A stretch of 32,191 nt of DNA, taken from NCBI GenBank assembly GCA_016779125.1, contig JADHOF010000008.1, positions 1 to 32,191 on the forward strand, written 5' to 3'. The stretch comes from Verrucomicrobiia bacterium (GTDB lineage: Bacteria; Verrucomicrobiota; Verrucomicrobiia; Limisphaerales; JAYPXF01). Below the pieces are notes generated by a model. That model did not search any database. It saw only the letters and a program-made list of their open reading frames with translations, and was not told the origin of the DNA. How positions within the stretch are numbered: position 1 is the first letter of the stretch; the number at the start of each line of letters is the position of its first letter. Below, one piece after another: positions 5,164-17,575 of the stretch. A program made the position numbers and the translations under genes.

Positions 5164-6492
5164 TCAGACGTCCTTCAACGGCCCGGTGGAATCCCCGAAG
5201 CGCTCAACCGGCGCGCCCATCACATCCAGCAGCCTCACGTAGAGATTGCTCATCGGCGTCTTGCCCGACAGCTTCAGATGGCGGCCCGGCTTCAACGCGC
5301 CGCCGGCGTGCCCGGCGAGAATCACCGGCAGGTCGTCATGGCGATGCCGGTTGCCGTCCGAAAGTCCGCTCGCGTACAGCGTCATCGAATTGTGCAGCAG
5401 CGACCTGCCGTCCACGTCTTTCGCGGCGTCCATCTTCTCCAGATAATAGGCAAACTGCCGCGCGTAGAACTCGTCGATCTTTCGCAGTTTCTCCATCTTT
5501 TCCTTCTCTTCCTGATGATGGGAAAGGAAATGGTGCCCTTCGGACACCCCGATGTCCTTGAAGCTCAGATTGCTGCCGTCGTGCGCGAGGGAGAAGGTCG
5601 CGATACGCGTGCTGTCCGTCTGAAAAGCCAGCACCAGCAGGTCGATCATCAGCCGGACATGATCCTCATACTTCCGGGGAATGCCTTCCGGTGCCTCCAT
5701 CGCGACCTTCGGCAGCCGGAAATCCTCGTTCCTCTCGATGCGCAGCTCCACCTCGCGAACACCGGTCAGGTACTCGTCCAGCTTGTGGCGATCGTTTCCT
5801 CCAAGCTGCCCGCGAAGGCTTCGCGCGTCTTCCAGCACGAAGTCGAGTATCGAGCGCTTCTGGGCGATCCGCTTCGCGTGGTTCGTCCGGCGCTCGGAAT
5901 CATTCCCCACACCAAACAGGCGCTCAAAGACCAGTCGCGGATTGTTCTCCGGCGCCATCGGCGTGACCTCGCTCCGCCAGGAAAGATTGAACTGGTAGGC
6001 GCAGGAATATCCCGAATCACAACCGCCGGACTTGCGCACAGCGTCCGTCGCCAACTCCAGAGACGCGAACCGGGTGTTGCGGCCGATCGCGTTGGCGGCC
6101 ACCTGATCCACCGAGATTCCGAGATGAATGTCTGCGCCGGCCGTCTTCCTCGGACGCGCGCCTGTCAGAATCGTGGCGTTGGCGCGGGCGTGGTCCCCGG
6201 CGCCATCCTTGCCGGCCCAGCCGTTTTCATGCTCCAAGCCGGAGATGACCTGAAAGTGCGGCTTGAAACCGGCCAGCGGCTTCATCGTGCGATTCAACTC
6301 GTAGTTCTCGCCGCTTCCCTCGGGACGCCACGCGTCCAGTATGACACCGTTCGGCACATACAGATAAGCCGAACGCAACGGCGGGCCGCCGTTTCCGCCG
6401 TTGGTCTCCAAGGCGGGGGCGAGCGATTCAAAGGTGGGAAGCGCGACCGCCGCGCCAAGTCCTCGGAGGAAATTTCTACGATTCGTTTTCAT
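5164..6492 (-). CDS. DUF1552 domain secreted protein (Tat-type leader)
   Basis: MKTNRRNFLRGLGAAVALPTFESL leader; YVPNGVILDAWRPEG, HDDLPVILAGHAGGALKPGRHL are typical of DUF1552 proteins; follows a DUF1592-type gene. Confidence 0.88.
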   Translation of the reverse strand: MKTNRRNFLRGLGAAVALPTFESLAPALETNGGNGGPPLRSAYLYVPNGVILDAWRPEGSGENYELNRTMKPLAGFKPHFQVISGLEHENGWAGKDGAGDHARANATILTGARPRKTAGADIHLGISVDQVAANAIGRNTRFASLELATDAVRKSGGCDSGYSCAYQFNLSWRSEVTPMAPENNPRLVFERLFGVGNDSERRTNHAKRIAQKRSILDFVLEDARSLRGQLGGNDRHKLDEYLTGVREVELRIERNEDFRLPKVAMEAPEGIPRKYEDHVRLMIDLLVLAFQTDSTRIATFSLAHDGSNLSFKDIGVSEGHHFLSHHQEEKEKMEKLRKIDEFYARQFAYYLEKMDAAKDVDGRSLLHNSMTLYASGLSDGNRHRHDDLPVILAGHAGGALKPGRHLKLSGKTPMSNLYVRLLDVMGAPVERFGDSTGPLKDV

Positions 6493-6533
6493 GGTTTGAA
6501 CTCAGTTTGGAATGGTCTTCCGGTCCGGTCGGT

Positions 6534-8918
6534 TTATCGCCCAAGCCGCGCGAGCCTGTTGCCGTCGCCCCGGCGCATCTGAAACGGGGCGCTCTCGGCG
6601 ATCAGGTAGAACAGCGTGCGCATCTTCCCGCCATCGTGCTCCAAGCCTTCCGAGATCCAGTCGATGGTCGGGGTGTCATAATATTCCATCCCGCGCCCCA
6701 GAGCGTAGGTCATCAGCTTCTCGATGAGGCAGCGATAGAAATCTCCGCGACGGGCGTTGGCCAACACGTCCGCCATCTCACGCGCGTTGCCAAAGGTCTC
6801 GCCCGTGATCAATTGCCCTCCCGCCTCGATCGGCAAGCCGCCTTCCTCATCGCGCCACATTCCGAGCGCATTGAAATTCTCCAGCGCCAATCCGAGCGGA
6901 TCAAAGCGGGCATGACAGGAGGCGCAGGCCGGATTCGCCCGATGGATCTCCATCGCCTCGCGCATGGCGATCTGCCCCCTGCGACCGGCGGTCACTTCCT
7001 CCAACAACGGCGCATTCGGCGGCGGCGGCGGCGCAGGCGTGCCGAGGATGTTGTCCAGAATGAACAGACCGCGCTTGACCGGCGACGTGCGTGTCGGATT
7101 CGAGGTGACCAGCAACACGCTCCCATGGGTGAGCACGCCCCGGCGGGGACTCTCCGCCGGCAGGACGACCCGCTGCATCTTTGAACCGCGCACACCGTCG
7201 ATACCGTAAAATTTCGCAAGCGCCTCGTTCAGGAACGTGTAGTCGGCCGTAAGCAACTCGGGCACCGCCCGGTCCTCCTTCAACAGGTAGTCGAACAGCA
7301 TCTCGGTCTCATCCCGCATGGCCTGGCGGATGTTGTTGTTGAACACCCGATAGGCCTGACGGGAATCGCGAATACGGAGAATGCGCCGGGGATCCACGGC
7401 GATCGCCTCGACATCGCGGGTCTGGAGCCATTGCCCGACGAAGCTGCGGATGAAACGCTGGGACTTGGGATCTTCGATCATCCGATCGATCTGATTCCGC
7501 AGATCCGCCCGCAGCCCGCCACGCTCCGCCAACTGAAACAAGGTCTCATCCGGGATGGAGCTCCAAAGGAAATAGGACAGGCGGGAAGCCAGCGCGAATT
7601 CATCCAATGCCACCACCTCGGCCGGATCGTCCGGCTTCGCCTGGATCTCGGCCCGGAACAGAAACCGGGGTGAGGAAAGGATGGCCTTCACCGCCCGCGC
7701 GACACCCTGCTCGAACATCACGCCGTCCTCCGCGTCGTGATCGATCGCCAGTTTCACCAGTCGGTCCAGCGCAGGCTCGTCCACCGATCGACGAAAGGCG
7801 CGCGACGCGATATGTCGGAGAATTTTGCGGGCGTAGACCTCGCGACCCGCCTGATCGTCCGGCGGCGGGCCATCGACAAACACGCGGCGGTAGATGGGGC
7901 TTTGCTTTCCGTTCTGCGAATTCAGCGGTCCCTGCAGGTAGACCGCGCGCACCGCGAGGCGCAGGGGGTTTTCACCCGGATCCGGCGCCGTTCCCGGCAG
8001 CAGTTCGAGCCCCAGCGTGTTCACCCCACGTTTCAACTCGGTTTCACCGCTCACATAGATCGCCTTGCGGGCGTCCCAGCTGAGATCCTCCTCGGCGAGG
8101 TTGCGTCCGTTCGCCTTCAGCCGGAGCACCGCGGAGTGAATGGTCGCCTCCATGGAGCCCTGGACGGCCATTTCCACCCGCACCAGATAACGCCCCGGCT
8201 CGGAAACGGTCTCCCGATGCTCGTAAAGCGCCTTCCGCTCAAACGGCATCCATTGCGCAGAGTTTCCGGCGTCCTGCGGATCCTTGAACATTTCTCCTCC
8301 GATCTGAAGGGTCGGAAGCCGGGGATGTTCCAGAGGAATGGCCGCGTCCGCGATCTTCTCCGCCGCCGTCAAATATTTCTCCAGCAGGAGCGGCGAGATG
8401 CTCAAGACGTCTCCGATGGTGTCGAACCCGTACCCCGTATCGTCCGGCGGAAACTCCTCGTCCGCCTCGAACTCGACTCCAAACAGGTCCCTCACCGTGT
8501 ATTCGTATTCCACACGGTTCAGCCGGCGGATCGTGACGCGACCGGGATCGGGCTTCTCAGGATCCACGAGAAAAACGTCACGCTCGATCCATCGCATGAC
8601 CTTCTCGCGCTGAGCTTGGGTGGGTTGATCCTTCTTGGCCGGCGGCATCATTCGCGCGCGAAGATTCTCCCACACGGCCAGCCATGTCTTGTGATCGGTC
8701 AGGCGCTCGCGATCGCTCTTGTGATGATCCAGCAGCAGATCCCCCTTGTCCACGCCGTCGGCGTGACAGTCATGGCAGAACTCCGCCAACACCGGCTCGA
8801 TCTCACGCTTGAAATCCAAGCCCCCCTCGGCCGCGCCGGCGCTGACCGACACGGTCGCGAGCAGCGCAAATCCGGCGAAATTCACTCTAAAACTCATGTA
8901 GGCATCCAGTCTCAACAT
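6534..8918 (-). CDS. DUF1592/DUF1588/DUF1587/DUF1585/DUF1595-type Planctomycete cytochrome c-like protein
   Basis: CHDCHADG near the N-terminus and CASCHARFDPLGLALENFNALG near the C-terminus; LNRVEYEYTVRDLFGVE; SRLSYFLWSSIPDETL. Confidence 0.9.
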   Translation of the reverse strand: MLRLDAYMSFRVNFAGFALLATVSVSAGAAEGGLDFKREIEPVLAEFCHDCHADGVDKGDLLLDHHKSDRERLTDHKTWLAVWENLRARMMPPAKKDQPTQAQREKVMRWIERDVFLVDPEKPDPGRVTIRRLNRVEYEYTVRDLFGVEFEADEEFPPDDTGYGFDTIGDVLSISPLLLEKYLTAAEKIADAAIPLEHPRLPTLQIGGEMFKDPQDAGNSAQWMPFERKALYEHRETVSEPGRYLVRVEMAVQGSMEATIHSAVLRLKANGRNLAEEDLSWDARKAIYVSGETELKRGVNTLGLELLPGTAPDPGENPLRLAVRAVYLQGPLNSQNGKQSPIYRRVFVDGPPPDDQAGREVYARKILRHIASRAFRRSVDEPALDRLVKLAIDHDAEDGVMFEQGVARAVKAILSSPRFLFRAEIQAKPDDPAEVVALDEFALASRLSYFLWSSIPDETLFQLAERGGLRADLRNQIDRMIEDPKSQRFIRSFVGQWLQTRDVEAIAVDPRRILRIRDSRQAYRVFNNNIRQAMRDETEMLFDYLLKEDRAVPELLTADYTFLNEALAKFYGIDGVRGSKMQRVVLPAESPRRGVLTHGSVLLVTSNPTRTSPVKRGLFILDNILGTPAPPPPPNAPLLEEVTAGRRGQIAMREAMEIHRANPACASCHARFDPLGLALENFNALGMWRDEEGGLPIEAGGQLITGETFGNAREMADVLANARRGDFYRCLIEKLMTYALGRGMEYYDTPTIDWISEGLEHDGGKMRTLFYLIAESAPFQMRRGDGNRLARLGR

Positions 8919-10136: not shown

Positions 10137-11873
10137 TCACTTGAGGAGCAGCGTCAGCAGCCAGATGACAAAGAGGCCTCCAGCCATGACCTTCCAGAAG
10201 AGCACCGGATCTCGCTCCAGAAGGGGCAGATCTGAGGGATCCACAAAGTCGGGGTTCGGCCGGCGAAGATCGGTGACAAATTCGGAGAGAGCCTCGTGGC
10301 GGTGCTCGGGATTGATCGACAACGCCTTTCGGAGTGCTCCATCCATCCAATTCGCGATCAACGGATTGAATTTCGCGGCCGGCGTGTATGCCAGCTTCCT
10401 GAAATCACCCAACGTCCCGGCATCCTCGAATCTTTCGCCGTAGGGATGCCGCCCCCCGGTCAGCATGCCATACGCGATCAACGCCAACGAGAAGAGGTCC
10501 GATTTGATCGTCGGGCGGCGTCCCAGTCGGTACTCGGGCGCGGAATATCTCGTCGTGCCCAGATTCCGCCCGCGTTCGATCGGCACGCGACTCTCCTTGA
10601 TGTCGACGGCGGAGGCCGACCCAAGATCGATGATTTTCACGTTGCCATCGGGCTCGATCATGATGTTGGCCGGTTTCAGATCCTGATGCAGCGTCTCCCG
10701 CCGATGCATGGACCGGAGTCCCCGCGCGGCCTGATCGATCACATCGACGACCTTGTTCACATCCGGTCGCGGATTCTCCCGGATCCAATCTTCCAGATTG
10801 CTCCCGCGAACCCGTTCCATCAGATAGAAGAGAAAGTTGGGCGCCCGCCGCTTTTCGACGACCCGCACCAAATGGGAATGACTGACGCGCTTGCCAATCC
10901 ATTCCTCCGTGACGAAGCGCTCGATGTAGGCGGGATCGTCCTCGAAATTGCGCGACGGCGTTTTCATCACCAGCTCATCCCCGCTTTCGATGTCGCGCAC
11001 ATGATAGAGCTGACCTCGGGGATTGGTATCCAGCAATGCGAGAACTTCGTAACCGTCGAGTTTGTGACCGGCCCGCAGATCCGGCGGAAAAGGAAGGCGC
11101 CCCAGTTCTTCGCAAAATTCCTTCCGCGTCGCCGTCGGCAGAGTTTCGATCCTGATCAGCTGGACGCTGATATTGTCCGCGCTCCCGTTCTGAAGCGCCA
11201 ATTCGCCGATCAACCGGCCGACCTGATCCAGATCCTCACGGTCATCCTTGAGCAGTCTTTCCAAGTCGCGCCGGTTGACGTGGTCGTGAACACCATCGGT
11301 CGTCAGCAGATACACGTCGTCCTCGTGCGCCTCCTCATGCCAGTAGTCAATGTCGAGATTCAGGTCCAGTCCCATCGCCCGGTTCAGAAAGCTCTTCTTG
11401 GCCGTCCCCCAGGTCGAATGATCGTTCGTCACCTGTTCAAGCGCGCCATCCCGAAGTCGATACACACGCGTGTCTCCGACATGAAAAACGTGAACAGTGC
11501 GGCTCTTGATCACCATCGCGCTCATCGCGCTGATGAACCCCTTGTGTTCGTCAACAAAACGACGCCCCTCGGAGTAAAGCCATTGATTCAATGAGGCCAG
11601 CACCCGGTGGGCGGAGGTCTTCACCAGCCACGTCTCCGGCGTCGAAAAATAGTCGGCGAGAAATCCCCGCACGCACAGTTCGCCCGCCTCCTTTCCGGCT
11701 CCCGCCGCCGAAACACCATCGGCGATCACCAGCGCGATTCCCTTTAGTCCCAAGGCTTCACCTTCAGGAATCCAAACACCAAGACAATCCTCGTTCTCGG
11801 GTTTCAAACCGGCGGACGTGAACTGGCCGTAGTTGACCCTGAGGTTCCCTTCAAGCTGCACGACCGCATTCAT
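10137..11873 (-). CDS. Bifunctional PP2C-type phosphatase / Ser-Thr protein kinase with C-terminal TM anchor
   Basis: PP2C motifs (ENEDCLG, IADGVSAAG, HVGDTRVYR, LLTTDGVHD, GSADNIS) followed by kinase motifs (HQDLKPANIM, IDLGSAS, TTRYSAPEY, KSDLFSLALIAYGMLTG) and a terminal hydrophobic helix. Start placed at MNAVVQ; the longer ORF reaches 11927. Confidence 0.92.
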   Translation of the reverse strand: MNAVVQLEGNLRVNYGQFTSAGLKPENEDCLGVWIPEGEALGLKGIALVIADGVSAAGAGKEAGELCVRGFLADYFSTPETWLVKTSAHRVLASLNQWLYSEGRRFVDEHKGFISAMSAMVIKSRTVHVFHVGDTRVYRLRDGALEQVTNDHSTWGTAKKSFLNRAMGLDLNLDIDYWHEEAHEDDVYLLTTDGVHDHVNRRDLERLLKDDREDLDQVGRLIGELALQNGSADNISVQLIRIETLPTATRKEFCEELGRLPFPPDLRAGHKLDGYEVLALLDTNPRGQLYHVRDIESGDELVMKTPSRNFEDDPAYIERFVTEEWIGKRVSHSHLVRVVEKRRAPNFLFYLMERVRGSNLEDWIRENPRPDVNKVVDVIDQAARGLRSMHRRETLHQDLKPANIMIEPDGNVKIIDLGSASAVDIKESRVPIERGRNLGTTRYSAPEYRLGRRPTIKSDLFSLALIAYGMLTGGRHPYGERFEDAGTLGDFRKLAYTPAAKFNPLIANWMDGALRKALSINPEHRHEALSEFVTDLRRPNPDFVDPSDLPLLERDPVLFWKVMAGGLFVIWLLTLLLK

Positions 11874-12026
11874 AGCGAACGCCGCGTCACGTGGAAACGA
11901 CGGAAGCCCCTTTTCATGCAATCGCAATCAATGAAACGGTACCGTCAGGCGGCACCCATGCCGTTGGGTCCGTCGGCTTCTCCGCGAGAATCAACAGGTC
12001 AACCAGCACAAGGCATCGGAATCATT

Positions 12027-12458
12027 TCAGGGAGAAATTTGAAACACTGCCTTCATCCCCCCTTTCTGCTGAACCAAATCGCGAAGACTGTATCGATCTA
12101 GCCTCGCCATAAACGCGGACATCGCCTCGTCAAAGATAACCTTCAGACCACAGCCGCCACGCAACCTGCATGGCGGATTGTGGCAATCCACAGGCTCCAG
12201 CTGAGGCTCCATGTGCCGCACCACGTCGCCAATGCAAATCGAGGACAACTCTCTTGCCAAACGGATGCCACCGTTCCGGCCTCGCGTTGTCTCCAGATAG
12301 CCCAGCGTCGCGAGGCGATGAACGACCTTTACAACGTGATTCTTCGAGAGACTGAAATAGTCGACAACCTCTCCGATCGTCACCTGTCGTTCCGGCGGTT
12401 GGGCGGCCAGATATAGAAGCGTTCTCAGACCGAAGTCGGTAAACCGGGTCAGATTCAT
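12027..12458 (-). CDS. nsrR: Rrf2 family regulator, NsrR-like
   Basis: MNLTRFTDFGLRTLLYLA, SKNHVVKVVHRLATLGYLETTRGRNGGIRLA; cysteines CHNPPCRLRGGC in CX4CX5C spacing as in NsrR. ORF track start (12554) overlaps the globin; internal ATG chosen. Confidence 0.85.
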   Translation of the reverse strand: MNLTRFTDFGLRTLLYLAAQPPERQVTIGEVVDYFSLSKNHVVKVVHRLATLGYLETTRGRNGGIRLARELSSICIGDVVRHMEPQLEPVDCHNPPCRLRGGCGLKVIFDEAMSAFMARLDRYSLRDLVQQKGGMKAVFQISP

Positions 12459-12498: not shown

Positions 12499-12960
12499 TC
12501 AAAACGTCTTGCGATGCCACGGAGTGCCTCCCTCGGCGACACCGGCCGGCTCAATCGCGTTCGCCGCGTCCTTCATCGTGGTTGCCAGAAGGGTGTAGGT
12601 CTCGATCCATGCCGCCTTGACCTCTTCGGTGAACGCGTCGCCCAAACCCTTGTTCAGCGTCCAGATCAACGCGTCGCCCACCGTGTCGTAATGTTCGTCC
12701 CGAACCCCGTATCCCACGTGGCGACGCCCGAGGTCCTGAACCGCACCGACGATCTTTTCAAGGTTGCTCAGTCCTTTCACCGCGACGGTGATCATGGTCG
12801 TGAGCTTCTTACCCTGTTCGGAAAGGTTTTCCGGAAACATCGCCTTGAGCGACGGGTCCAGATCGAACAAACGGGAATAGAACAAACCCGCGGCGGTGTC
12901 TGCGATCGGAACGACCTTGTCCCAGCTATCCTGAACTAGTTTTACCTGATTTTCTGTCAT
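12499..12960 (-). CDS. Single-domain globin (flavohemoglobin-type globin fold, no reductase domain)
   Basis: MTENQVKLVQDSWDKVVPIADTAAGLFYSRLFDLDPSLKAMFP ... LGRRHVGYGV (proximal His region) ... AALIW-like H-helix; start moved to MTENQ from 13011. Confidence 0.88.
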   Translation of the reverse strand: MTENQVKLVQDSWDKVVPIADTAAGLFYSRLFDLDPSLKAMFPENLSEQGKKLTTMITVAVKGLSNLEKIVGAVQDLGRRHVGYGVRDEHYDTVGDALIWTLNKGLGDAFTEEVKAAWIETYTLLATTMKDAANAIEPAGVAEGGTPWHRKTF

Positions 12961-13007
12961 GTTGATTTCCTGTCTTGTTTCTCGTTTCGGCCAATCTTCA
13001 GCCGGCA

Positions 13008-13421
13008 TCATCGCCGACTGAAATGAATCATGTACAGGACCGCCCTTCGCACCTGCTCGTCGGTAAGGTCCTTGTTCCCGCCCCGCGCCGGCATCCCGGC
13101 TTCAGTTTTCCCCTCAAATCCGTTCAACGCGCTGGCCACAAGCACATCAATCCCCTTCCCGATGCGGGGACCCCATGCCGATGGGTCACCAAACCGCGGC
13201 GAGCCGGCCTTGCCGATGCCGTGGCAGTTCCGACAGTTTTCGATCCAGATCTCGCGCCCGGCCACCAGGTCCTCACCCGGGGCATGAGGCCAATCATCGG
13301 GCTCACTCCGGACAACGGCCACCTCCGGATCCGGGGCGGGCTGCGGCGAGTGATCGCCACAGCCCGCGAGAAGAAGCACGCCCGCGGAGAGGATCACCGC
13401 AAATCCCATGCGCCGTTTCAT
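13008..13421 (-). CDS. Monoheme cytochrome c lipoprotein (cytochrome c5-like)
   Basis: Lipobox LLLAGC; CRNCHGIGKAGSPRFGDPSAWGPR; C-terminal GGNKDLTDEQVRRAVLYMI. Confidence 0.88.
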   Translation of the reverse strand: MKRRMGFAVILSAGVLLLAGCGDHSPQPAPDPEVAVVRSEPDDWPHAPGEDLVAGREIWIENCRNCHGIGKAGSPRFGDPSAWGPRIGKGIDVLVASALNGFEGKTEAGMPARGGNKDLTDEQVRRAVLYMIHFSRR

Positions 13422-13430
13422 AAACCTGGA

Positions 13431-14045
13431 TTAAGAGTCCTTACCGAGAGGAATTCGAATCATGACGCCGCCCATCACGTCCCCGAGTTTGAAGTCGGTT
13501 TTCGGGGAATCCTTGTGGTCGTTATGACAATCCACGCAGGCAGCGGCGACCCCGATATCGGCGTAGAGGGCACTGAAGTATTTCTGATCTCCAAGCGTTT
13601 CCTCACCATAAAACGGAGCCGTTCCCCCGTTGCTCTTGATGAACTCCAAACCCTGTTTCTCAATGTCTGTCTTCGGGGCGTGTTGCTTGTTGATGGGCCA
13701 CTCGCTGAGAAGACCATAGGTGAATCCGATGTCCCGCTCCGTAACCAGCTCTGCACCCATGCGAAACATCTGGGCGGGCAGCGGCAGCGCCTTTTCGTCT
13801 TCATAATACTCGCTCGCCTTGATCACCTTGTGTTCCTTCACCAGGCGGTTGATCACCTTCTTGGCGTAGACGGTTCGATCCGCCGCCATGACCGCATGCA
13901 GCATGTCGGCCACCTGTTTTGGAGCCAGCCCCGACGGTGCCGCCGCAGCGGGTGGAGCCGGCGGCTCGCCGCATCCGACAGCCATAAGACCGCCGCAGGC
14001 CGCAAGTCCGGCTATGATTTTCGAGAGTTTGATCTGTGTTTTCAT
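13431..14045 (-). CDS. DUF3365/Tll0287-like domain heme lipoprotein
   Basis: Leader with lipobox-like MAVGC; C-terminal CVDCHNDHKDSPKTDFKLGDVMGGVMIRIPL resembles the DUF3365 c-heme motif region. Confidence 0.75.
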   Translation of the reverse strand: MKTQIKLSKIIAGLAACGGLMAVGCGEPPAPPAAAAPSGLAPKQVADMLHAVMAADRTVYAKKVINRLVKEHKVIKASEYYEDEKALPLPAQMFRMGAELVTERDIGFTYGLLSEWPINKQHAPKTDIEKQGLEFIKSNGGTAPFYGEETLGDQKYFSALYADIGVAAACVDCHNDHKDSPKTDFKLGDVMGGVMIRIPLGKDS

Positions 14046-14072: not shown

Positions 14073-15419
14073 CTAGCGTTGCTTTTCCGAGATCCTCCGC
14101 CGGACCCAGTCGAGACTCTCGATGTGTCGAGACGGTTCACCTCGAAAATTGGTTTTGATGAGCTGCACATCCGCGAGCGCATCGATCACGTATCCCAGCC
14201 CGTGACACGGCAGACAGGCGGTGCGAATCATCTTTTCATTCGGCTGCAGGTTGAAACTCTGATTGTGGGTCACAAGTGTCCGGGTGCCGGTGACATCTTT
14301 ATGTTCAATCCGCGGCATGTGGCAGGTCGCACAGGACACACCGCTCCCGGAAGGCAGCCTTCCGGCCGTTTCATCCTGCCAAAGTGCGAAATGGGAGGAG
14401 CGCTTGTAGGCGAGCGAATGTTCGTCTGCATGACAGGACAAACAGGCCTCGACAGCGGCGTACCGGGTGTCAAATCGATGCGACGGATGACAGGAGGTGC
14501 AGTTCAGTTCACGATGCCCGGCCTCGTGCTTCATCGGCAGACGCGCCATGTCGGGCCGCATGGGTTCCAGATCTTGGGCCAGCCGCATTCCATGTTTCCC
14601 AGCCAAAAAGGTTGATGCCTCGCTCTGATGGCATCTGGCGCAGCTCGCAAGCCCCGGCTTTTCAATCCATTCCAGCCCCCCTCTCTCATCCTTGGTCTCG
14701 TGGTGGCAATCACCGCAGTTGACCCCGCCCCCGGCGTGACTCGTTTCCACCCATTCCGTATTGATCGCGGCATCCGACCTTTTCGACGGTGGGGCGTCCC
14801 TTTCCTCCAGTCTCACCGGACTCGAAGCGCCAATTCCGGCCGTTTCAAAATACGCGGCAAGCCCTCGCGGTAGCACGCTGCCATGCTCCTTGTGGTTCGG
14901 CTCGTCCAGATGCCGGCTCAGGAAGTTTTCATAAAGGGCGGTATTGTCGTGAAAATTATGACAACCCGCCGTGGCGCAGGAGTCGAAGGGCAGCCCGGCA
15001 TGCGATTCCCGGTTCTCCAAGGTCTCCTGATGACAATGCGCGCAGAAATCATCGGGCAAGGTGACCCCCATGGGCCGGGTCTGATCGGGAACGTGCTCGC
15101 GGTGACAGGTCACACACTTCCGGGCATCCAACGCCCGCACCCGGTCCGCGTTTCGTGGATCCGTAAATTTCGACTTCGGATGAGAGTCATTGACCGCCTT
15201 CAAGTCGGCCGCATGGCAATCGTAGCAGGCCTGCTCCTTCACCCCGTTCAAGGGGTCATGGCACACCTCGCATCGCACCTCGATCTGGTGGTGCCCGTGC
15301 GTCGTCGCCCCCGGCAGAAACACCGTCGCGTCGGGACCTTTCATTCTCAATGTGAAATAGGAGCTCATGCTCAATGTGAGGACGACCCAGACAAACCAGG
15401 GCCAGGCTTTTTTCCACAT
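14073..15419 (-). CDS. Multiheme c-type cytochrome, approximately 11 heme-binding motifs, N-terminal TM/signal anchor
   Basis: MWKKAWPWFVWVVLTLSMSSYF anchor; ten CXXCH (CEVCH, CYDCH, CVTCH, CAHCH, CGDCH, CARCH, CTSCH, CLSCH, CATCH, CLPCH) plus one CX4CH (CATAGCH). Start placed at 15419, just after the preceding gene's stop. Confidence 0.9.
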   Translation of the reverse strand: MWKKAWPWFVWVVLTLSMSSYFTLRMKGPDATVFLPGATTHGHHQIEVRCEVCHDPLNGVKEQACYDCHAADLKAVNDSHPKSKFTDPRNADRVRALDARKCVTCHREHVPDQTRPMGVTLPDDFCAHCHQETLENRESHAGLPFDSCATAGCHNFHDNTALYENFLSRHLDEPNHKEHGSVLPRGLAAYFETAGIGASSPVRLEERDAPPSKRSDAAINTEWVETSHAGGGVNCGDCHHETKDERGGLEWIEKPGLASCARCHQSEASTFLAGKHGMRLAQDLEPMRPDMARLPMKHEAGHRELNCTSCHPSHRFDTRYAAVEACLSCHADEHSLAYKRSSHFALWQDETAGRLPSGSGVSCATCHMPRIEHKDVTGTRTLVTHNQSFNLQPNEKMIRTACLPCHGLGYVIDALADVQLIKTNFRGEPSRHIESLDWVRRRISEKQR

Positions 15420-15421
15420 GG

Positions 15422-17575
15422 TCAGTAGTAGTAGCTGGCGAAGGCGTGAAAGAAGACGAGCACCGGCAACGGCCAGGTCAACGCGACGTGAAAGGACTGC
15501 CATCCTTTCCGCAACCAGCGTCCCCATGGATCGATCATGCTTCGTTCCACCGCCGTGACCAAACCCGCCATGCCCCCGATCCCGGCGAGCAGGAGAAAGT
15601 TGACGCCCAGCAGAAAATTAAGGTTGTGACCAAGATGCAGACCCGTGTGCAGAAACAGAACCAGAAGCGTACCGACCCCGATCCCCGCGTGCAGCACCCG
15701 CCAATGTCCAAAATCTCCCAATGAAAACCTGCGTATCCGCTTCCGAAGCGAAAGCACCATGCTCAGGACCGACAGTCCCACCAGAGCAAATCCGGTGACC
15801 TGCTTTACAAAGTGATCGCTCCAGAGAGATTCGATCTTTGACACCCTTTGCACGGAGTCGGAAACCGGCATTTCAAATGCAGCAATTGGCACCAAAATCA
15901 GAAGACACAGGAGGGAAACCAGCCCCAACGCGAACCCGCCGCGGGGCTCAACCACCACGTCCTGTGGCGCACCGATAATGCGGGACACCACCGGCGCGCA
16001 GGACCCGCAGACCGAGGATGCCCCCGTTCTCGCCGCGATATCCGGAACGGAGGACGCGCCCTCGCGACACGCCGCCACGATCTCCCGTTTGCAGATGCCC
16101 ATGCAGTTGCAGACCTCGGCGGTTTCAGGCCAATCGGCGGGATCAGCCGTAACCTGCGGCCTCCAGAGGAGCCCCTGTTCAATGAAGCGGTTGATGTTCC
16201 AAGGCCAGATCCGCCTCCGCTTCCGGATGACCTCCCGCACGCGGGAGATCTCCGTCCAACCACCGATCTCAATGGCACCAACGATGCGCCCCCCCAGAAC
16301 GGAAATTCTCCGGTAGGTGCCGTTGAATTCGCTCGAATAGGAGGGGCATTCCGATTGGAACTCCCCGACCGCCGCGACCTCGATCTTCTCGAGCTTCAGG
16401 ATGGCCGACTGATCGGGCTCCCTAAAGACAGCCGCGCCTCCGTGGAGATTCTCCGCAAGCACGTCCGCCATCTCATACCCGGGCAGAACAAGTCCATAGG
16501 GCGCTCCCTTGAAGGCGGCGCATTCGCCGACCGCGTAAACCATGGGGTCGGAGGTCTCCAAACGCTCATTCACCTGGATGCCGCCACGGGGCCCCACCTC
16601 AAGTCCACACGCGCGGGCCAGCTCATCACAGGGTCGAATGCCGGTTGCGAACACCACCATGCCCACCTTCACGCAGGTGCCGCTCTTGAATACCACGACG
16701 AGCTCCTCACCTCGTCGCTCGATTGATTCAGTCGTCTGGGCATTGTGCACCACCACCCCGGATTCCTGAATCCGGGACTGAAGGATGCGGGAGGCTTCGA
16801 GCGGCAGCTGCTTCGACATCAAACCGGAACCGCGTTCCACCACATGGGTGCGCAGACCAAGCTTGATAAATGCCTCCGCCGCCTCCAGCCCGAGAAGGCC
16901 GCCTCCGATTATCAGAACGCTTCCGCACCCGGCGGCCCGGGATCGTATGCGCCGCAGGTCGCTCAGACTGCGATAGACATACACGCCTTCCAGATCCCCT
17001 CCGGGTATTTCAGGACGGAAGGCATGTGAGCCTGTTGCGAAAACGAGCCTGTCATATGGCACTCTTTTTCCGCTTTGCGAATGTACAACTTTTTCTTCGC
17101 GATCGACCAGGACGACAGGATCGCCGGTGTGAAGTTTGATTTCATGTTTCTCATACCAATCGCTTCCCTTCAGTTCCAGTTGTCGGGCGGAGGTGCCGTG
17201 GAGAAAGTCCGTCAGATTGACCCGATCAAGCGCCGGATGCGGTTCGGCTCCAAAAACGGTCACATCCCATTTTTCAAGCCCGCCTCCGGCAACCATTCGA
17301 TCCAAGACCCGCAGCCCGACCATGCCATTGCCGATGACGACCAGCCTTTCCCTGACCGCCACTGGATTGGGCAATGAAGCATGGCCGGACCTTCCGGGCC
17401 TCGCATTCCTCATTCGTTTCAATAAGCCTGCCATTCGCTTTTCGGTCCTCGACCGCTGCCGGGCTTGTAGCATCAGCGATGCCAGATGGGGCGGAATGCC
17501 TCTCGCGAAACCTCCAAATCTATAGCGGACTTCCATGCCTGAAATCGATGGATTCGCTGGAGGCCCATGCAGCAA
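15422..17575 (-). CDS. NirB-like FAD/NAD(P)-binding oxidoreductase + BFD [2Fe-2S] domain + C-terminal multi-TM (cytochrome b/ferric-reductase-like) domain
   Basis: LVVIGNGMVGLRVLDRM (FAD), VLIIGGGLLGLEAAEA (NAD), CNCMGICKREIVAACREGASSVPDIAARTGASSVCGSC (CXCX31CX2C BFD-type), then about five hydrophobic segments with several His (LHAGIG, FLHTGLHLGHN, SFHVAL, FFHAFA). True start may be downstream, e.g. 17413. Confidence 0.85.
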   Translation of the reverse strand: MLHGPPANPSISGMEVRYRFGGFARGIPPHLASLMLQARQRSRTEKRMAGLLKRMRNARPGRSGHASLPNPVAVRERLVVIGNGMVGLRVLDRMVAGGGLEKWDVTVFGAEPHPALDRVNLTDFLHGTSARQLELKGSDWYEKHEIKLHTGDPVVLVDREEKVVHSQSGKRVPYDRLVFATGSHAFRPEIPGGDLEGVYVYRSLSDLRRIRSRAAGCGSVLIIGGGLLGLEAAEAFIKLGLRTHVVERGSGLMSKQLPLEASRILQSRIQESGVVVHNAQTTESIERRGEELVVVFKSGTCVKVGMVVFATGIRPCDELARACGLEVGPRGGIQVNERLETSDPMVYAVGECAAFKGAPYGLVLPGYEMADVLAENLHGGAAVFREPDQSAILKLEKIEVAAVGEFQSECPSYSSEFNGTYRRISVLGGRIVGAIEIGGWTEISRVREVIRKRRRIWPWNINRFIEQGLLWRPQVTADPADWPETAEVCNCMGICKREIVAACREGASSVPDIAARTGASSVCGSCAPVVSRIIGAPQDVVVEPRGGFALGLVSLLCLLILVPIAAFEMPVSDSVQRVSKIESLWSDHFVKQVTGFALVGLSVLSMVLSLRKRIRRFSLGDFGHWRVLHAGIGVGTLLVLFLHTGLHLGHNLNFLLGVNFLLLAGIGGMAGLVTAVERSMIDPWGRWLRKGWQSFHVALTWPLPVLVFFHAFASYYY

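Follow-up and report, generated by a model that had tools for sequence, protein, structure and literature searches.

NirB/NasB-type reductases carry an FAD/NAD module, a Rubredoxin_C-like domain and a BFD-type [2Fe-2S] domain in this order; in NirB, these are followed by a siroheme/4Fe-4S reductase half. FAD-BFD proteins such as NasB are known electron donors of assimilatory nitrate reductases. The ferric reductase superfamily, which includes NOX, bacterial NOX, MsrQ/YedZ and STEAP, moves electrons of NAD(P)H across the membrane and has four His residues on the TM3 and TM5 helices. In NOX2, H101 and H209 form the inner heme pair, and H115 and H222 form the outer one (PMC3591440). For Bradyrhizobium japonicum, one globin and one NAD(P)H flavoprotein (Flp), encoded in narK-bjgb-flp-nasC, have been tied to nitrate assimilation and NO removal, with Flp serving both NasC and a globin; neither a membrane cytochrome b nor a multiheme cytochrome is among the components described in the portion of that report used here (PMC4724949). 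The locus analyzed in this study lies in a 32,191-nucleotide stretch (the window) from a metagenome-assembled genome of a Verrucomicrobiia bacterium, which is 80.9% complete. It encodes one NirB-type head that is fused to a membrane domain and followed by the gene of one eleven-heme cytochrome (Table 1).

Table 1. Features of the module and its neighbors in the window. Residues are numbered from the first codon of the 717-codon ORF.
Feature	Position	Strand	Remarks
FAD-BFD-cytochrome b fusion	15422..17434	-	from likely start ATG 17434
FAD/NAD(P)H-binding domain, Pyr_redox_2	16508..17347	-	residues 77-356; motifs GNGMVG, GGGLLG
Rubredoxin_C-like domain	16217..16405	-	residues 391-453; Pfam
BFD-like [2Fe-2S] domain (Fer2_BFD)	15974..16114	-	residues 488-534; Pfam
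Five-helix membrane domain	15425..15937	-	residues 547-717; AlphaFold2
TM3 candidate heme ligands H629 (inner), H643 (outer)	15647..15691	-
TM5 candidate heme ligands H696 (inner), H710 (outer)	15446..15490	-
Membrane-anchored c-type cytochrome, 11 heme motifs	14073..15419	-	10 CXXCH + CATAGCH
Tll0287-like (DUF3365, sCache_heme) monoheme lipoprotein	13431..14045	-	Pfam E 1.5e-19
Class I monoheme cytochrome c	13008..13421	-	lipoprotein-like signal
Single-domain globin	12499..13011	-	ORF overlaps preceding stop codon
Rrf2-family regulator, NsrR-like	12027..12458	-	C-x4-C-x5-C
PP2C phosphatase + Ser/Thr kinase	10137..11927	-	peripheral; putative member of transcript

The ORF of the fusion (15422-17575, minus strand) is open from TTG 17575 and is 717 codons in length. 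TTG 17575 is probably not the true start; compared with the relatives, ATG 17434 (codon 48) or ATG 17410 (codon 56) suits better. The initial annotation had called the N-terminal part NirB-like, and the profile searches agree: Pyr_redox_2, Rubredoxin_C and Fer2_BFD were matched in the same order as in NirB/NasB-type proteins. The NCBIfam NirB model (TIGR02374) aligns at profile positions 1-465 of 794 only, with a score under the cut-off, and Pfam (E ≤ 0.01) identified neither the NIR_SIR nor the NIR_SIR_ferr domain of siroheme-4Fe-4S reductases in the fusion. The siroheme half of NirB is thus missing as had been noticed, and a membrane domain is fused in its place; a NirB label would be wrong. 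The cysteines of the BFD domain (C489-x-C491-x31-C523-x2-C526) follow the CXCX31CX2C pattern described before, and all four are invariant in 65 aligned relatives; in a Foldseek search, the fold of the domain matches Bfd (6e6r) with a TM-score of 0.84 on the target. Because one acidic residue ends the second NAD strand, the fusion may prefer NADH over NADPH.

The C-terminal part had been described as about five hydrophobic segments, and the AlphaFold2 model of the BFD domain and tail (mean pLDDT 91.9, pTM 0.84) indeed contains five membrane helices, which are formed by residues 547-566, 580-610, 622-644, 652-677 and 683-716. The last ∼170 residues match no known family in Pfam, and no NCBIfam model covers the membrane domain. 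When the BFD and membrane model was searched with Foldseek, the membrane helices gave no significant PDB fold match. Matches of the model to V-ATPase, talin and cytochrome b561 were discarded as noise; only that of BFD is confident.

Four His residues of the membrane domain are candidate heme ligands. H629, H643 and H696 do not vary among the 65 aligned relatives, and H710 reaches at least 90% conservation; the first ten relatives aligned have all four without exception. They correspond to the four His-rich motifs picked out by the initial annotation (LHAGIG, FLHTG, SFHVAL and FFHAFA, in the order of the residues), so this part of its reading stands. The extra His residues of HLGHN, H647 and H650, are not conserved among the relatives and drop out of it; the His pattern therefore goes beyond a chance His run. 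By prediction, TM3 and TM5 both cross the membrane in the inside-to-outside direction, and the ligands are 14 residues apart on each of them. The presence of an Arg/Lys-rich loop (RKRIRRF) between TM2 and TM3 suggests an N-in/C-out orientation; with this orientation, H629 and H696 would belong to the inner candidate heme, and H643 and H710 to the outer one. The proposed heme-b-like nature of the domain is well supported by the four conserved His residues, their 14/14 spacing and their positions on TM3 and TM5, and the domain very probably holds two hemes b. The ligation and occupancy of these hemes, like the orientation of the fusion in the membrane, are inferred.

Like the proteins of the ferric reductase superfamily, the fusion has four His on TM3 and TM5 and would take NAD(P)H electrons to the far side. 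The spacing (14 and 14) is close to that of NOX2 (14 and 13), and the inner/outer pairing is common to both. Different from that superfamily, the fusion has five helices, its flavin module is N-terminal, and the BFD domain is located between flavin and heme. On the fusion tail, the Pfam Ferric_reduct model gave an E-value of 0.95 and 10 bits, compared to a cut-off of 28. Alignment by hhalign with six FRD proteins gave probabilities of 24-53%, which are weak and come with a two-helix shift (0.7% for the reversed control). The match being weak and shifted, we do not claim FRD membership on profile grounds; a circular permutation relative to the FRD proteins is possible.

Relatives were collected from the same order and phylum and by a genome-contig scan with the alignment of the tail as query (80 loci kept). 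A quick tree of the N-terminal part is compatible with one origin of the fusion as well as with several. The same fusion is present in ∼80 other genomes, which belong to Pseudomonadota, Verrucomicrobiota, Planctomycetota, Lentisphaerota, Poribacteria and Myxococcota. Of 82 loci, 75 have the cytochrome gene adjacent to that of the fusion. In six of the remaining seven, the contig ends within 1 kb downstream, and for the seventh, from Polyangium (L064), one cytochrome homologue is located on another contig (G497:C120). Within the phylum Verrucomicrobiota, the fusion (counted as full when the match reached the last residue of the query, 625) and the cytochrome (E ≤ 1e-40) are confined to the identical 9 of 390 genomes. 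Judged by these distributions, the pairing of the two proteins is obligate. Of the two acceptors considered by the initial annotation, quinone or a periplasmic cytochrome, the latter is favored by this pairing and by the position of the 11-heme gene, next to the fusion in nearly all well-flanked relatives. No match was obtained when plasmids were searched by tblastn with the membrane domain. The open-licence papers that we searched contained no description of the module; the building blocks are each known, whereas the assembly is new and still has no name. In the Polyangium ORF, which is 1268 residues in length, a Pro/Ser-rich linker of ∼500 residues separates the BFD cluster from the membrane domain.

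The cytochrome gene begins with ATG 15419, two bases past the fusion stop. In the structure model, the protein has one N-terminal membrane helix. Its heme motifs are conserved at every position in 69 to 71 of 71 relatives. One of them, CATAGCH (positions 14958-14978, minus strand), is of the unusual CX4CH type; it is often CASAGCH in the relatives, with Cys and His kept in 71/71. In addition to those in the motifs, 11 His residues are conserved in the 71 relatives; 11 such residues for 11 hemes would fit a pure wire without an open heme.

Over its last four hemes, the cytochrome aligns with Kuenenia HAO (E 5.8e-8), IhOCC, octaheme nitrite reductases (ONR) and NrfA, and HAO also tops the fold search, with a marginal Foldseek E-value of ∼1e-3. 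The cytochrome thus shares its C-terminal multiheme core with HAO, ONR and NrfA; different from them, it has 11 motifs, a membrane anchor, a dissimilar N-terminal half and no CXXCK. The alignments with HAO and with ONR/NrfA bring different heme motifs of the cytochrome into register. H379 (numbered in the 484-residue ORF) aligns with the position that we take to be that of the active-site His in HAO and ONR. If H379 is the active-site His, ten distal ligands are left for eleven hemes; if it instead ligates a heme, bis-His coordination may hold throughout and the cytochrome would be a wire.

Downstream of the cytochrome, the Tll0287-like lipoprotein is strongly conserved, and its CXXCH was found in 65 of 67 relatives; phmmer gave no solved structure for it. 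It shares the Pfam match and a single CXXCH with Tll0287-like/sCache_heme proteins. Tll0287 has Cys/His ligation, whereas this is unlikely in the window lipoprotein, as none of its internal Cys is conserved outside the heme motif and the lipobox. The cluster-ligand cysteines of the Rrf2 regulator, present as CHNPPCRLRGGC in the translation, have the C-x4-C-x5-C spacing of NsrR; NCBIfam NF008240 (NsrR) is the best family match, with 142.9 bits, under the cut-off of 182. An NsrR-like gene beside the module was found in this window only. In a Limisphaerales locus (L035), one homologue of the PP2C/kinase protein is found close to both the module and a NasA-like gene, and the protein may belong to nitrate-assimilation control. 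An apparent NirA gene close to the window was rejected, as the gene encodes the kinase and the label came through the L035 protein.

The nitrate-assimilation and NO context of the module had no place in the initial annotation. Across the 82 loci, many of which end at a contig edge and whose gene calls are mechanical, the neighbors include Tll-like proteins (66), globins (37), cytochromes c (24), NrtA (20), NrtB (20), 2Fe-2S ferredoxin reductases (14), and NasA, NirA and NirB (4 each); labels were assigned by BLAST to cluster representatives, whose names were given by eye and in part verified with Pfam/NCBIfam. NasT-like ANTAR regulators adjoin the module in 6 of the 82 loci, nitrate-assimilation genes are present in 26 and porin-like genes in 16. 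Neither nitrate genes nor a globin lie near the module in 30 of the 82, or in 19 of the 60 loci with at least 6 kb downstream; the Poribacteria loci have the three core genes alone.

L111 and L112 are complete Nrt/NasA/NirA operons that contain the module. Their order is NrtA-B-C, porin, the three core genes, and then CysJ-like, NirA, DmsB/DmsC-like and NasA-like genes; the porin of L111 is Alginate_exp, and L111 also has a globin. For the NasA-like protein, the NCBIfam models of formate dehydrogenase and assimilatory NasA score nearly equally, both under the cut-off, and the name is taken from the context. Within the phylum, a NasA-like match (E ≤ 1e-85) was found in 9 of 9 module genomes and in 56 of 381 others (Fisher p = 6e-8, an optimistic value as the genomes are related). 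Of 21 further module genomes searched (G029 plus 20 that were traced from loci, G309 being among these 20), all but one gave a match with the limit relaxed to E ≤ 1e-30, where formate-dehydrogenase-like proteins are admitted as well. The window genome has a cluster of NasA/NirA type, named by eye, on another contig; G001, which belongs to the same genus, has neither the module nor such a cluster.

Two genes of L111 deserve mention in their own right. Next to the NasA-like gene, L111:2440-4065 (minus strand) encodes a DmsB + DmsC-like membrane fusion, and this gene suggests that some Verrucomicrobiota supply the assimilatory nitrate reductase from quinol. L111:5884-7533 (minus strand) encodes a CysJ-like flavoprotein adjoining NirA, which suggests that nitrite reduction in L111 is NADPH-driven, not ferredoxin-driven.

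Based on the domain order, the conserved ligands, the predicted helix positions, the obligate pairing with the cytochrome and the gene context, which are all read from the sequences, we propose the following path. On the cytoplasmic side, NADH would reduce FAD and, through it, the [2Fe-2S] cluster of the BFD domain. From this cluster, electrons would pass to the inner heme b (H629/H696), then to the outer heme b (H643/H710), and on to the undecaheme cytochrome, anchored in the membrane and facing the periplasm. The Tll0287-like lipoprotein and the small cytochrome c may receive them next. Ultimately, the electrons would serve periplasmic nitrogen-oxide reduction, most likely of NO or nitrite; inside the cell, the globin would remove NO in the cytoplasm, and in this window NsrR would sense it. 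The anatomy and the obligate pairing strongly suggest such a wire, and an outward direction of electron flow is likely. For nitrogen-oxide use, the balance tips slightly in favor. Taken as a whole, a transmembrane NAD(P)H-to-periplasm wire that serves nitrate/nitrite assimilation and nitrosative-stress defense is the reading to which we incline, if by a modest degree.

In L111 and L112, the nitrate and nitrite reductases each have a likely electron donor already, the DmsB/DmsC-like protein and the CysJ-like flavoprotein, and the wire is therefore unneeded in the two assimilation steps. With separate donors in complete operons, the extra arm most plausibly handles toxic intermediates, comparable to the globin/Flp pair of Bradyrhizobium (PMC4724949). 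The substrate, and any role of the cytochrome as reductase itself, are inferred. A further, tentative possibility is that the two proteins form one enzyme, a quinone-independent, NADH-driven transmembrane NO, nitrite or hydroxylamine reductase of nitrate assimilators, with the eleven-heme HAO/NrfA-related protein as its catalytic subunit.

Several other explanations were weighed against the proposed outward wire. The similarity of the N-terminal part to NirB would fit an ordinary NirB with a mis-assembled or frameshifted C-terminus, and a frameshift had been named as one finding that would overturn the initial annotation; this is refuted by the recurrence of the fusion, ligands included, across several phyla in ∼80 other genomes. 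Some of these genomes (G292, G309, G334 and G415) separately encode a second homologue, which is of NirB length (838-849 aa) and tail-less. It seems unlikely that the cytochrome is a mere conduit to an extracellular or metal (Fe(III)/Cu) acceptor, reached through the Tll0287-like lipoprotein and the alginate-export-type porin that often neighbors the module. The equal number of conserved distal His and hemes does suggest that all hemes are bis-His, and the porin-like genes, the porin type of L111 and the bare Poribacteria loci point in the same direction. However, the porin genes also adjoin Nrt transporter genes, so that a nitrate/anion pore is equally likely; the module clusters have no recurrent outer-membrane multiheme cytochrome, and this reading does not account for the genes of globin, NasT and NsrR.

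An inward or sideways flow is also improbable. The fusion would then be a membrane-bound donor of NasB/Flp type for a cytoplasmic nitrate reductase or the globin, while the b and c hemes gather periplasmic or quinol electrons. The donor role of NasB, that of Flp towards NasC and globin alike and the co-occurrence of NasA with the module all speak for it. However, NasA and NirA have their own likely partners in the complete operons, a cytoplasmic donor needs no obligate 11-heme periplasmic partner, and reducing NAD+ with electrons of c-type hemes is usually an uphill step. We consider it very unlikely that sensing is the main function of the module, with the Tll0287-like protein responding to NO or redox state and the wire resetting it. 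This protein is strongly conserved, and Tll0287/DUF3365 domains fused to signaling modules bind NO, but the same study assigned redox roles to stand-alone domains (PMC12889525); the window protein is a stand-alone lipoprotein without a signaling domain, and at some loci it is absent beside the module.

Respiratory multiheme reductases are usually quinol-fed. By joining a NirB-type head to a NOX-like domain for two hemes, the proposed wire would provide a direct NADH-to-periplasm route, a distinct solution that occurs across several phyla. It also suggests that many nitrate assimilators run a periplasmic redox arm missing from current pathway maps. Automatic annotation hides the module: the head draws NirB names, Pfam lacks a model for the membrane domain, and the cytochrome is scattered over generic cytochrome c families. 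Elsewhere in the window, positions 5164-8918 (minus strand) encode a DUF1552 protein beside a PSCyt/PSD (DUF1592/1588/1587/1585/1595) protein.
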